Origin: Arsukibacterium perlucidum DSM 18276
Lineage (GTDB): Bacteria > Pseudomonadota > Gammaproteobacteria > Enterobacterales > Alteromonadaceae
Direction of reading: 5' to 3'
DNA length: 64,000 nucleotides
Assembly (NCBI RefSeq): GCF_000382165.1
Contig: NZ_KB907704.1
Location: forward strand, 62,001-126,000
Both the position numbers and the translations under genes were made by a program. The stretch's first letter is position 1. Each line of letters opens with the position of its first letter. The notes beneath the pieces were generated by a model that saw only the letters and a list, made by a program, of their open reading frames with translations, ran no database searches and was not told the origin of the DNA. Below are positions 42,251 through 46,891 of this stretch, in pieces.

Positions 42251-42493
42251 ATGTTCCCTGCAAAGTTTCAAACTATTATTTTTGCTTTTATAATGTCAGG
42301 TTTTATGGCGTTTCTGATGTCGGCTATTCTGACATTTATAAATTTGGGTTGGTTTGACGGTTTTGTCGCGGCCTGGCTACGTGCTTATCTTTATGCCCAT
42401 GTCTGTGCTTTTCCACTGGTATTTGTATTTGCGCCACTGAGCCGGCGCCTGACCGCGAAGCTGGTAAAACCCGCAGAGCTTAGCGGTAACTGA
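42251..42493 (+). CDS. DUF2798 family small membrane protein
   Basis: The 80-residue protein has two transmembrane helices with the FQTIIFAFIMSGFMAFLMS and AHVCAFPLVFVFAPL segments typical of DUF2798. GGAGG precedes the ATG. Function is unknown. It is convergent with the truncated hemoglobin gene and overlaps its end by 14 bp. Confidence 0.85.
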   Translation: MFPAKFQTIIFAFIMSGFMAFLMSAILTFINLGWFDGFVAAWLRAYLYAHVCAFPLVFVFAPLSRRLTAKLVKPAELSGN

Positions 42494-42902
42494 TATCTTT
42501 ATACATCGGCGCCAGCAACGCCAGCAGGGCGTTTTGGTCAGTAATACTGATTTGTTGGCGTTGCATCACTTTTATTAAGCCTTCAACCAGTGCATCATAA
42601 TCGGCCAGAGTGATATTAAATCCGGTATGGCTTTGCTGCATGGTGCTGCCGCTATACTGACAAGGGCCGCCGGTCAGATCACACAATTGCTCGGTCAACA
42701 TCGCCCGGAAGCGGCCAATGTCGCTGTCGGCAAAATGATGGACAATCCGTTCATCATGTTCAATTTCAAACAGTAAGCCATCAACAATAGCATTAATACC
42801 CTCTTCAGCACCTAACCGCTGATACAAAACGGGCCCGGTTGCAGTACTGCAGCCAAGCAGCAGTGCCAGGCAGGCACCGATTAAACCACTGCGTTTTACC
42901 AT
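42480..42902 (-). CDS. Group 1 truncated hemoglobin, lipoprotein form
   Basis: The 140-residue product has a lipoprotein signal ending LLGC (Cys18), followed by a 2-on-2 globin of group 1: VLYQRLGAEEGINAIV, HHFADSD and GGPCQYSG. The proximal haem histidine is in QQSHTGFNIT (His92). Group 1 globins bind O2, NO or CO, and some detoxify NO. Lipid anchoring would place this one on the periplasmic face of a membrane, unlike most family members. It is last of four tightly coupled genes and its start overlaps the DUF3034 stop by 7 bp (ATGGTAA). Confidence 0.92.
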   Translation of the reverse strand: MVKRSGLIGACLALLLGCSTATGPVLYQRLGAEEGINAIVDGLLFEIEHDERIVHHFADSDIGRFRAMLTEQLCDLTGGPCQYSGSTMQQSHTGFNITLADYDALVEGLIKVMQRQQISITDQNALLALLAPMYKDISYR

Positions 42903-43726
42903 GTGGCCTCCAGCGCCAGATAATAACCCGTTTGCGAACCCTGACCGGCAATGTTGCCAAGATCAACGTAAGCGCCGGTTACACTGACATTTTTATTTAT
43001 AAACCAGGCAATAAAAATATCGCGCCAGTGCTGTTCAGCGGCAAAGGCCAGATTATCGGGCTTTTGCTTGTATTCAATGCCCAGCGCCAGGTTGTAATTT
43101 AACAGCACGGCTGCCGAGCCTTCAAACAGCAATTGGTAACTGTTGTCGTTGCTGCTGCCAAAGCCCAGCAAACCGGTCTGGTTTGCTTTGCTGGCCCGCA
43201 GTGTGCCATTGAGCAGCAAATTACGGCCCGCCACCTGATTAAACAGCAGCTTGCTGGCTGCCAGATAGAAATCGGTGCCATTGGCGCTGCGCGCGCCGAC
43301 CGCTTGGGGCAGTGCGAAGTCCAAGTTACGCTTATGCTGGATGCCAAGGCTGATCTGTGGCATGGCGGTATACAGCAGCTCACCAGCCAGATGGTATTTC
43401 ACCGAAAAAATATCCTGCGATAAGCTGCCACCAATTGATTCCAGCGCGAAACGCTGGCGGGCATAGGACAGCTCCCATGTATTGTCCAGGCTCAGGGCAA
43501 TGCCGGCACTGTTCAGGCTGAAATCATTAACGCCCACCCGGCCAGCAAAGGTTGTTACCGACCACTCGTCACTGCTGGCATAGCCGTTAATTACCGCCCA
43601 GGGCACAATGCCACCGCCGGCGTTACCTTCTACAGTTGTCGCGCCGCCGGTAGCAATAATTTTACTGCCGGCGCTGGCCAGTGTCGGCAGGCAAAAAAAG
43701 ATGATCAGCAGCAGCCGTAAATTCAT
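42896..43726 (-). CDS. DUF3034 family outer-membrane-type protein
   Basis: The 276-residue protein has a signal peptide ending at ASAGS and a run of alternating hydrophobic strands ending in a C-terminal aromatic residue (LALEATW). This suggests an outer-membrane beta-barrel. The GGATTVEGNAGGGIVPWAVINGYA start is characteristic of DUF3034. Function is unknown. Its start codon overlaps the stop of the upstream GGDEF-EAL gene (ATGA) and its stop overlaps the start of the hemoglobin gene, so the three are translationally coupled. Confidence 0.85.
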   Translation of the reverse strand: MNLRLLLIIFFCLPTLASAGSKIIATGGATTVEGNAGGGIVPWAVINGYASSDEWSVTTFAGRVGVNDFSLNSAGIALSLDNTWELSYARQRFALESIGGSLSQDIFSVKYHLAGELLYTAMPQISLGIQHKRNLDFALPQAVGARSANGTDFYLAASKLLFNQVAGRNLLLNGTLRASKANQTGLLGFGSSNDNSYQLLFEGSAAVLLNYNLALGIEYKQKPDNLAFAAEQHWRDIFIAWFINKNVSVTGAYVDLGNIAGQGSQTGYYLALEATW

Positions 43727-46038
43727 TCCGATACCTCTGCGGTCGGTGTTGTTGTCGCAGCAAAATTAGTAAGCCATTTGCTGAAATCATTAGCTGCCAA
43801 TGGCTTGCTGAAAAAATAACCTTGGACAGTGTCACAACCTGAAGCTTTTAGAAAGCTTAAGCCTGCCTGGTTTTCCAGGCCCTCTGCCGTCACTTTAAAA
43901 CCAAGACCATGGGCAAGTTTAACGGTCGCATTAACGATCAGCGCATCATTAGTATTAGTTTCTATGTCTTTAACAAAGGCCCGATCAATTTTAATTTCGT
44001 TAACCGGCAGTTGTTTTAAGTACGCCAGAGATGACTGACCGGTGCCAAAATCATCAATGGCCAGATTAATCGCCATCGCTTTTAAGGTGTTTAAGTTGGC
44101 AATAACTTTGCTGGTATCCTGCATTACTGCGCTTTCGGTTACTTCCAGCGCCAGCGCGGTAGCCGGAACCTGGTTTATATCAAGTAAGTTTTTAATTTGC
44201 TCAGGCAAATTCTGGTCCAGCAAATCGGCTGCTGACAAATTAACGGCAACGCGCAGGGTTGGGTAGTCATGCTGCCACGCAGCAAGTTGTTGAATAACCG
44301 TTCGTAACATCCATTGGGTGATCAGGCCAATATTGCCTGAGTGCTCGGCAGTGGCAATAAAATCGACCGGAGAAATAAAGCCCAGCTGGGGGTGCTGCCA
44401 GCGAATTAACGCTTCAGCGCTGTGGCATTGCTGTGACGCCAGTTCAACTTTAGGCTGATAAACCACGAACAGCTGGCCACTGTTCAGGGCGTTTGGCAAG
44501 TCGCGGATAATTGTCAGCTCACGCTGATGAGTTTCATCCTGGCCACTTTGATAAAAGGCAATACCACCGCCGGCCAGGCTGGCGTTCTCCTGCGCTAAAT
44601 CTACCCGGCGTAGCGCTTCACTGGTAGTGCCCTGTTCAGGTTCAAACGGGTAAATACCAATCGCAATTTTTAAATTAATTAACGAGTTTTGAATGTTGTA
44701 AGCCGGTTGCAGGCTGTTATATAAATCAACCAGCTGTTGTTCGCTCAGGCTCTGGTTAAACAACATTAAAAACTCATCACCGTTTAAGCGGGCGCAAAAA
44801 GCGGCGGCAGGCTGATGATGGCCCAACCGCTGTGCCAACAGTTGTAACAGGGTATCGCCATTAGCCAGGCCAAGGGTATCGTTTATATGTTTAAATTGAA
44901 TAATATTAAGTTGTAATAAAGTGCCGTGTTGTGTTTTTAAGATGCCGGGCAGCCTCAGCTCTACCGCATGCCGGTTTAACAGGCCGGTAAGAGCATCATG
45001 TTCGGCTTGCTGGCGCAATTGCTGTTCGCGCGCAGTAATACTTTGTTGCATGCTGACCAGGGTACTTGTCAGTAAACCAATTTCGTCATGGCTGATGGCC
45101 GGCGGTTCAGCGGCATTGCCCTGGCCAATAGCTTTGGCAAAATGACTGAGCTGGCTTAATGGCTTGCTGATACTGCGGGCAAACAAAAAGGCAGCCAGCA
45201 GCGCTAACACTAATCCAAAAGCAAAAATCTCTACCAACTGGTGCCGCAATTGCTGATAACTGGCTAGCCAGCGGTCATCGGGCATATGCAGTAATGCCCA
45301 CAACTGTTTTTCGTTATCGAGTGCTTTACCACGGGTAATATAATTAAAATCGGCGGCCAGATGAGTAGCACCAGGGGTAGCCAGGATGTCCCCGAGTTTA
45401 TTGACTAACCGTTGTTGGGTATCTGCTGGCAGGGTGCTGGTCAGTTGTTGGTTAGCGCGGCTATCCTGCTGGGTAAAACTGATATCCAGCCCGGTGATGC
45501 CTTTAATTTGCTCAGCCAGCGGCACATCTACTAAAAAGCCCATACCTACCCAGGCAATAATTACCGGAGCTCTTACCGGCACTAATACCAGCTGATAAGC
45601 CTGGCCATCAAGTAGCAGAATGTCAGTAACGGCACTGGAGCCCTGGGTGGCAGGAATTAATTGCCTGATGTCGCCGCTGTCTAACCGGGCGCTGCTGGCA
45701 AGCAGCTCCCCGTCAGGGGTTAACAATAACGCAAGCTGAGCGTTGATCCGGCTGCCGTGATTCTGCAACACCGATTCAATGGTGGCCTGTTCTGCGGTGG
45801 CAATAGCCTGGCGAAAGCCAAAGTCTGCTGCCAGCAGGCTGACACTATTCGTTAACTGGGCTGCCCTGCTATCCAGCGCTTGTTGAAAAACTTTGCTGGC
45901 AACGTCCAGTGATAACTCAGCCTGTTGCATCGAGTTAGCGCGCATCGACTTTAACGTAGCATAGCCTGTAAGCAGCATCAGCAGACTGAGTAATACAACT
46001 AATAAGCTAATCCATTTACTGCGCAGCGAATTCAACAT
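43723..46038 (-). CDS. GGDEF-EAL protein, probable c-di-GMP phosphodiesterase
   Basis: The 771-residue inner-membrane protein has a TM helix (about 11-31), a Cache-type periplasmic domain, a second TM (about 270-290), HAMP, GGDEF (about 345-500) and EAL (about 515-760). The GGDEF domain is degenerate: the motif reads NGDEF, and the metal-binding D-x-D has become LNIIQFK, so cyclase activity is unlikely. The EAL domain keeps its catalytic set: AEALIRW, VAVNLSAADL, EVTES, IDDFGTG, EIKID, AEGLEN and QGYFFSKPL. It should therefore hydrolyse c-di-GMP. It is second in the four-gene operon, 7 bp after the cupredoxin-like gene. The periplasmic sensor may read a signal handled by its co-encoded partners. 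Confidence 0.93.
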   Translation of the reverse strand: MLNSLRSKWISLLVVLLSLLMLLTGYATLKSMRANSMQQAELSLDVASKVFQQALDSRAAQLTNSVSLLAADFGFRQAIATAEQATIESVLQNHGSRINAQLALLLTPDGELLASSARLDSGDIRQLIPATQGSSAVTDILLLDGQAYQLVLVPVRAPVIIAWVGMGFLVDVPLAEQIKGITGLDISFTQQDSRANQQLTSTLPADTQQRLVNKLGDILATPGATHLAADFNYITRGKALDNEKQLWALLHMPDDRWLASYQQLRHQLVEIFAFGLVLALLAAFLFARSISKPLSQLSHFAKAIGQGNAAEPPAISHDEIGLLTSTLVSMQQSITAREQQLRQQAEHDALTGLLNRHAVELRLPGILKTQHGTLLQLNIIQFKHINDTLGLANGDTLLQLLAQRLGHHQPAAAFCARLNGDEFLMLFNQSLSEQQLVDLYNSLQPAYNIQNSLINLKIAIGIYPFEPEQGTTSEALRRVDLAQENASLAGGGIAFYQSGQDETHQRELTIIRDLPNALNSGQLFVVYQPKVELASQQCHSAEALIRWQHPQLGFISPVDFIATAEHSGNIGLITQWMLRTVIQQLAAWQHDYPTLRVAVNLSAADLLDQNLPEQIKNLLDINQVPATALALEVTESAVMQDTSKVIANLNTLKAMAINLAIDDFGTGQSSLAYLKQLPVNEIKIDRAFVKDIETNTNDALIVNATVKLAHGLGFKVTAEGLENQAGLSFLKASGCDTVQGYFFSKPLAANDFSKWLTNFAATTTPTAEVSE

Positions 46039-46045
46039 TCAGTGG

Positions 46046-46687
46046 TTACCTGTTGCCAAAACCACGTTGCGGGGCCTGTGGCTTTTGCTGTGATAAATCA
46101 ATTGCCAGACTAACAGCAGCCGTTTGCAGCGGCATAACCAGATCTAATGTAGTCACTTGCCATGGTTCAAGTTGCCAGGGATGCCAGACATGCAGCTGAT
46201 ACTGGCCGGGGGTAATGTCCGGCCATTTCAGCTGACCGGCTTCGTTGCTTACTGCAACCAGGTTGCTTTCACTGACATAGATATAGGCCTGCATATAATC
46301 ATGAATATTACAACCAAGCGCGACGATGCCTGGCGTGTCAAAAGTGATGGGAGCTTCAGGTTTATCAGCATACAGCTGAATTTCAAACTGCTTGGCCGGT
46401 GAGAATGAGTATACATGATGCCGGGTTTTATCCAGGTTGGGGAAATCGACCTCACTGCCCGCCGGCACTGCACTGACAAAAGGTACAAAGGTTAATTTTT
46501 GCTGCGCAACCTGAATGCGCTGCGGCTTAATATCCGACATGCTAAGCGAGCGAAGTTCCACTACAGCATCAGCCAGAGGTTGCTGCTGCTGATTGGTAAT
46601 ACTGATAGTTAAACTGGCAGCGCTAAGCTGGCTGGAGTGTAATATTAAAGCTAAAACAAGTCCGCCGGCGATTAAAGCTAACTTCAT
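46046..46687 (-). CDS. Cupredoxin-like periplasmic protein (methylamine utilization protein type)
   Basis: The 213-residue product has a signal peptide (about 1-24) and a cupredoxin-type beta-sandwich. Candidate copper ligands are visible: a His-His pair at 90-91 (TRHHVYSF), and Cys126, His129 and Met132 in GCNIHDYM, the C-x-x-H-x-x-M order of a type-1-like site. Proteins annotated as methylamine utilization proteins share this layout, but no methylamine dehydrogenase genes are here. ATG 46687 is chosen because the signal peptide begins there; the frame runs 114 bp further upstream without a better start. It leads the operon with the EAL, DUF3034 and hemoglobin genes. Confidence 0.8.
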   Translation of the reverse strand: MKLALIAGGLVLALILHSSQLSAASLTISITNQQQQPLADAVVELRSLSMSDIKPQRIQVAQQKLTFVPFVSAVPAGSEVDFPNLDKTRHHVYSFSPAKQFEIQLYADKPEAPITFDTPGIVALGCNIHDYMQAYIYVSESNLVAVSNEAGQLKWPDITPGQYQLHVWHPWQLEPWQVTTLDLVMPLQTAAVSLAIDLSQQKPQAPQRGFGNR

Positions 46688-46891
46688 AGTACCCGCAATT
46701 TTTCCAAGGATGTTGATAACCATAGCAAGGACTTGGTCCAGCCACAAATAGATTCTGCACTGCTGCCTGATATAGTCAAGCTGGTGATAAAACAGCAACA
46801 ACCGCCAACATATTTACTAACAATTTGCAGTTAGCCGGCGCAGAGCAACAGTGCTAATTTAGCCCCAGGATCATTAGGCAGTGAGCAAACT

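Follow-up and report, generated by a model that had tools for sequence, protein, structure and literature searches.

The window analysed here, a 64,000-nucleotide stretch of the Arsukibacterium perlucidum DSM 18276 genome, contains four closely packed genes on the minus strand (Table 1). They are read in the order cupredoxin-like protein, dCache_3-HAMP-GGDEF-EAL protein, DUF3034 protein and truncated haemoglobin. Starts and stops were re-read, and the three junctions are exactly those given by a first-pass annotation of this DNA: a 7-bp gap, a 4-bp ATGA overlap and a 7-bp overlap. Signal peptides of the operon proteins were assessed by eye. The closest relatives of the DUF3034 protein are found in Arsukibacterium (84-89% identity). 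At the other end of the operon, a DUF2798 gene (42251-42493, plus strand) converges on the globin gene, and the 3' ends of the two overlap by 14 bp. The conserved block upstream of the operon could belong to either of two divergent genes. Promoter-like sites numbered 9, compared with a mean of 5.7 (s.d. 2.1) in shuffled sequence, and were given no weight as evidence.

Table 1. Features of the four-gene operon, in positions of the window.
Feature	Position	Strand	Residues, basis or remark
Cupredoxin-like exported protein, 213 aa	46046..46687	-	ATG at 46687; type-1 Cu ligands H90, C126, H129, M132
dCache_3-HAMP-GGDEF(degenerate)-EAL protein, 771 aa, predicted c-di-GMP phosphodiesterase	43723..46038	-	Pfam and residues
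DUF3034 protein, 276 aa, signal peptide, predicted 12-strand outer-membrane barrel	42896..43726	-	PF11231, AlphaFold2, Foldseek
Group-1 truncated haemoglobin, 140 aa	42480..42902	-	Lipobox C18, H92, C74, C81, L44, F65, L69; PF01152, alignment
20-bp block 5' of the operon	46808..46827	-	Identical across 7 aligned loci (window and six Arsukibacterium)

The second gene product matched the Pfam models EAL (2.6e-73), GGDEF (2.5e-21), dCache_3 (1.2e-17) and HAMP (7.9e-7). It had been described as combining an EAL domain that carries all its catalytic residues with a GGDEF domain that has lost its metal-binding aspartates, and the first statement holds across the homologues, the second for most of them. 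The eight catalytic positions of the EAL domain (PF00563) were invariant in all 52 aligned proteins, an alignment that leaves out L086 (40-bit EAL match), and they were equally complete in 13 of 13 cupredoxin-associated enzymes found away from DUF3034. The metal Asp of the first GGDEF motif (PF00990) is replaced by Ile in the window; it was lost in 40 of the 52 proteins and kept in 12. Judging from these residues, the output of the enzyme is expected to be c-di-GMP hydrolysis.

The first gene product matched no Pfam or NCBIfam model above cut-off. A profile built from 30 of its homologues and compared with solved structures matched a copper nitrite reductase (2.5e-6) and a type-1 copper protein (8.4e-4), and weakly amicyanin (0.019) and pseudoazurin (0.027); Cupredoxin_1 matched seven of the 30 homologues with E-values up to 0.01, and 22 of the 30 carry a C-terminal domain resembling CarboxypepD_reg. 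The copper-like Cys-x2-His-x2-Met site noticed in the window, together with an upstream His, was invariant in all 46 proteins encoded at DUF3034 loci and in all 25 encoded elsewhere.

The same annotation had proposed that the gene order be searched for in other genomes. PF11231, the Pfam model for DUF3034, was found in 39 of 398 sampled genomes of the phylum, which represent 28 of 213 genera, and in none of 14 control genomes. Stretches of 9.5 to 16.5 kb were fetched around the 38 other matches and their open frames searched with models built from the loci; once these longer stretches had been fetched, L019 (a fragment at a contig end) was dropped, as were the short loci L001 and L020-L049. 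In all 39 sampled loci a gene for an exported group-1 truncated haemoglobin adjoins the DUF3034 gene. The two are likewise paired in all 21 additional loci, which come from named genomes and plasmids, giving 60 of 60. Conversely, a globin profile, itself derived from cluster members and used to score the best 10 candidates per genome, gave 42 matches of at least 140 bits among those listed for the same 398 genomes, the next scoring 94 bits; of the 42, 39 adjoin an intact DUF3034 gene, one adjoins a broken second copy and two are without DUF3034.

Several of these loci deserve separate mention. L173 and L174 encode high-scoring globins with the Cys pair described below, in genomes without any DUF3034 match. 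L176 (contig C3 of G078) is a second DUF3034-globin copy interrupted by internal stop codons, in a genome that also has an intact pair. In the genus of the window DUF3034 is patchy (17 of 31 genomes), which suggests frequent loss or transfer.

The four genes occur together in 31 of the 39 sampled loci in variable order, a count that includes one weaker EAL case. The order seen in the window was found in 23 loci. In six, an EAL-cupredoxin pair is divergent from DUF3034-globin; in one, the order is DUF3034-globin-cupredoxin-EAL; and in one, a cupredoxin-DUF3034-globin set has an EAL match of lower score (549 bits) 1.7 kb away on the opposite strand. One locus is without cupredoxin, two have the cupredoxin but no EAL gene, and five consist of the DUF3034-globin pair alone. 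Among the plasmids, two from Caballeronia have the order DUF3034-globin-cupredoxin-EAL and one from Novosphingobium has the divergent order, the annotated product names being DUF3034 family protein, group 1 truncated hemoglobin, methylamine utilization or carboxypeptidase regulatory-like protein, and EAL protein; another Novosphingobium plasmid, L053, carries just DUF3034 and globin. When the 60 DUF3034 proteins were placed on a maximum-likelihood tree, well-supported branches separated from the rest both the divergent set and the DUF3034-globin-cupredoxin-EAL set, and two changes suffice to account for the three main arrangements. The grouping exceeds chance because it is conserved across genomes. 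The rare co-location that the annotation had named as grounds for refuting its proposal is not what is seen. Recurrence in 28 of the 213 genera sampled, and persistence through rearrangement, support a single functional system with a phosphodiesterase output.

The cupredoxin and EAL genes act as a second unit, apart from DUF3034-globin. Of the five sampled genomes whose cluster is limited to the pair, four have a cupredoxin-EAL unit at another site (L154, L155, L156, L157); the fifth, G078, gave no cupredoxin match among the best seven candidates scored per genome. The cupredoxin is absent from the cluster in eight loci, all from nearer relatives of the window, and for these a cupredoxin homologue was found elsewhere in six of the seven named genomes tested and also in G126. 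It could be argued from this structure that DUF3034-globin and cupredoxin-EAL are two independent units that are often neighbours and have no common function, since the pair stands alone in six of 60 loci and cupredoxin-EAL is present in genomes without DUF3034. We consider this very unlikely. Cupredoxin matches of at least 167 bits occurred in 38 of the 39 DUF3034 genomes, compared with 12 of the 359 others (best seven candidates per genome, scored with a profile derived from the cluster members themselves), and the two units have been joined in several distinct arrangements.

The third gene product is a clear member of its family (PF11231, 4.8e-104; 347.9 bits against a cut-off of 25), to which Pfam assigns no function; two open-access papers mention DUF3034, once each. 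An AlphaFold2 model made with 18 close sequences has 12 strands (mean pLDDT 63.6, pTM 0.64). Among solved structures, Foldseek matched it best to the outer-membrane barrels FapF, general porins, a COG4313 channel, OmpG and NanC, with TM-scores of about 0.3-0.5, about 10% identity and a best E-value of 9.9e-7. On the basis of this model we predict with moderate confidence that DUF3034 proteins are outer-membrane barrels; the conserved residues 36-66, which are poorly modelled, could form a plug. Several of the Foldseek matches (NanC, the COG4313 channel and the general porins) are substrate channels. The cluster might therefore serve uptake or trafficking, the barrel importing a metal, haem or a metallophore, the globin and the cupredoxin acting as periplasmic carriers, and the phosphodiesterase reporting how far the carriers are loaded; the two loci in which DUF3034, globin and cupredoxin lack an EAL neighbour would fit such a role. 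We judge it unlikely, as no transporter gene recurs among the modelled genes and an EAL gene lies alongside in 32 of 39 loci, more often than a side reporter would need.

The fourth gene product matched PF01152 (4.5e-12; 46.7 bits against a Pfam cut-off of 21) and is, by sequence and predicted fold, a group-1 truncated haemoglobin. It had been annotated as a truncated haemoglobin with a lipobox and a proximal histidine. The second feature proved general, the proximal His F8 and the Phe at CD1 each being present in all 60 cluster globins; the first did not, as the lipobox position is Cys in 43 of 60 and the residue is missing from the four named Caballeronia and Novosphingobium globins. In seven globins of the divergent arrangement (L051, L068, L074, L085, L087, L088 and L090), a VDPYxxSxxNAGA-like motif lies N-terminal to the globin domain. 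Two cysteines, C74 and C81, were invariant in the 60 cluster globins, whereas the corresponding columns hold Cys in 5 and 3 of 20 control globins, which were hand-picked from weaker profile matches and not random; a C74-C81 disulphide in the periplasm is plausible. No published role for exported globins of this type came to light in the open-access literature; PMC12093952 contains the phrase 'periplasmic truncated hemoglobin'.

The haem pocket was read from an alignment with the Tetrahymena truncated haemoglobin, with Y25, Q46 and Q50, taken from its solved mutants, as position markers. It places L44 at B10, F65 at E7 and L69 at E11. Position E11 is Leu or Phe and E7 is apolar in all 60 cluster globins, and B10 is apolar in 57 (the others being two Tyr and one Asn). 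Tyr at B10 and Gln at E11 form the O2-holding pair of trHbN, where they are tied to O2-dependent NO dioxygenation. In the cluster globins Tyr B10 was found in two of 60 and Gln E11 in none, while the 20 controls have them in 10 and nine, respectively. Apolarity alone is not specific to the cluster, since about half of the 20 controls are apolar at single positions. A wholly apolar pocket should be poor at holding O2, and may favour NO or act as a redox site.

These residues bear on the view that the cluster serves detoxification or redox protection, in which the globin and the cupredoxin would be periplasmic enzymes or electron carriers directed against NO or oxidants, and the phosphodiesterase would only be co-regulated. 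Such roles are known elsewhere for group-1 truncated haemoglobins and for cupredoxins, and some cupredoxin-barrel pairs come without an EAL gene. The near-absence of the trHbN-type residues (no Tyr B10 in 58 of 60 globins, no Gln E11 in any) argues against this view, as does the tight gene overlap with a phosphodiesterase whose catalytic set is invariant, and we regard it as decidedly unlikely.

We favour a reading, with a probability of about 55%, in which the products of the four genes form an envelope-spanning signalling module that governs c-di-GMP hydrolysis. The receptor would be the DUF3034 outer-membrane barrel with its partner, the exported haem globin. The relay would be the type-1 copper protein in the periplasm. 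As output the scheme has the membrane-bound enzyme: its dCache_3 domain would be exposed to the periplasm, its EAL domain would hydrolyse c-di-GMP and its degenerate GGDEF domain would play a regulatory part. Ligand binding at the haem or copper, or a shift in the redox state of either site, would make the exported proteins act differently on dCache_3 and so alter c-di-GMP. Against this reading count the eight loci whose clusters lack the cupredoxin, the two without an EAL gene, the absence of a cupredoxin match in G078, the apolar residues of some control globins and the NnrS result given below. The analysis itself shows that the genes are conserved, that they fall into two units, that metal ligands and catalytic residues are invariant and which folds are predicted; the contacts among the proteins, the direction of the signal and its ligand are the parts of this scheme that we infer. 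The most likely class of signal, as far as residues can indicate it, is NO, another diatomic molecule or a redox state; O2 storage and NO dioxygenation are disfavoured because B10, E7 and E11 are apolar. It had been suggested that surface copper and haem proteins might detect O2, NO or a redox signal that the phosphodiesterase converts into a c-di-GMP change. The idea of one system with a phosphodiesterase output is supported; among the proposed signals O2 becomes the least likely, the polar pocket residues being missing. A possible link to NO through co-occurrence with NnrS, a weak test, revealed no association among the 31 genomes of the genus (13 of 17 with DUF3034, compared with 10 of 14 without).

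Away from DUF3034, the cupredoxins often adjoin a protein of about 410 aa. Thirteen such proteins are mutually homologous (phmmer, 2.5e-45 or better to L163) and a fourteenth, L155, was recognized through their model; the family occurs in none of the 60 DUF3034 loci. In seven of 13 loci of this type an EAL gene also adjoins the cupredoxin. The C-terminal residue is aromatic in nine of the 13 proteins, and of four scanned, two gave weak Porin_4 matches below cut-off and two gave none. A profile comparison with DUF3034 produced a match that was short and uncertain (64%). The family is probably composed of barrels. In the window's own genome, a second cupredoxin gene, with no EAL gene as its immediate neighbour, is divergent from a gene for a 412-aa protein of this family (L152, contig C22, 4918-6867).

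A wider proposal, which we put forward tentatively, is that such clusters are modular sensors running from the outer membrane to the cytoplasmic c-di-GMP pool, with a constant cupredoxin or cupredoxin-phosphodiesterase core and swappable outer-membrane receptors. The receptor would be either DUF3034 with an exported, Cys-paired, apolar-pocket globin reading NO or redox state, or the barrel of about 410 aa, and the copper protein would link the receptor to dCache_3 by carrying the signal, which might be an electron. The swap of barrel-like partners suggests a general design.

Although the individual domains are known, the four-gene set and the globin subfamily appear undescribed. No description of the four-gene cluster was found in the open-access literature, covered mostly at the level of listings. 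Iron oxidizers have several truncated haemoglobin genes and many GGDEF/EAL genes, and the available text of the paper reporting this does not describe the four-gene cluster (PMC3770913). BCAL1069/CdpA of Burkholderia cenocepacia, which its source places in an operon, was for that reason considered as a characterized relative; it was rejected, being described in that source as a PAS protein without membrane segments (PMC5835511). That distant bacteria keep copper, haem, barrel and c-di-GMP-destroying genes together suggests an unstudied route for reporting from the envelope to the cell interior. For many periplasmic c-di-GMP enzymes no signal has, to our knowledge, been assigned, and the conserved set joins DUF3034, an exported globin and a periplasmic c-di-GMP enzyme in one testable operon.

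Compared with known proteins, the globin shares fold and family with trHbN of Mycobacterium tuberculosis, and it is the trHbN mutant TyrB10Phe/GlnE11Val that was its first Foldseek match and its second profile match (89.7 bits, compared with 89.9 for the best and 87.9 for the wild type). Unlike trHbN, the cluster globin is exported, has an invariant Cys pair and is naturally apolar at B10, E7 and E11. The cupredoxin shares the copper ligand pattern and the C-x2-H-x2-M spacing with amicyanin and pseudoazurin, but is longer and has an extra C-terminal domain resembling CarboxypepD_reg. H-NOX proteins have a different, cytoplasmic fold, whereas the cluster globin is exported. As the accessible part of one report indicates, H-NOX NO sensors act on c-di-GMP enzymes, so that a haem protein is tied to biofilm behaviour (PMC8738867).

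At the level of whole systems, the architecture proposed here has two partial parallels in Pseudomonas aeruginosa. In YfiBNR, outer-membrane and periplasmic partners govern a membrane c-di-GMP enzyme, which is a cyclase, whereas the output here is a predicted phosphodiesterase accompanied by haem and copper proteins. The two resemble each other in outline (YfiBNR is the subject of PMC3375315). The CHASE4 c-di-GMP enzymes PA14_53310 and PA14_37690 have periplasmic sensor domains that bind haem or copper, according to the available text of PMC13277305; the cofactor there resides in the enzyme's own domain, whereas the present cluster encodes separate exported haem and copper proteins.
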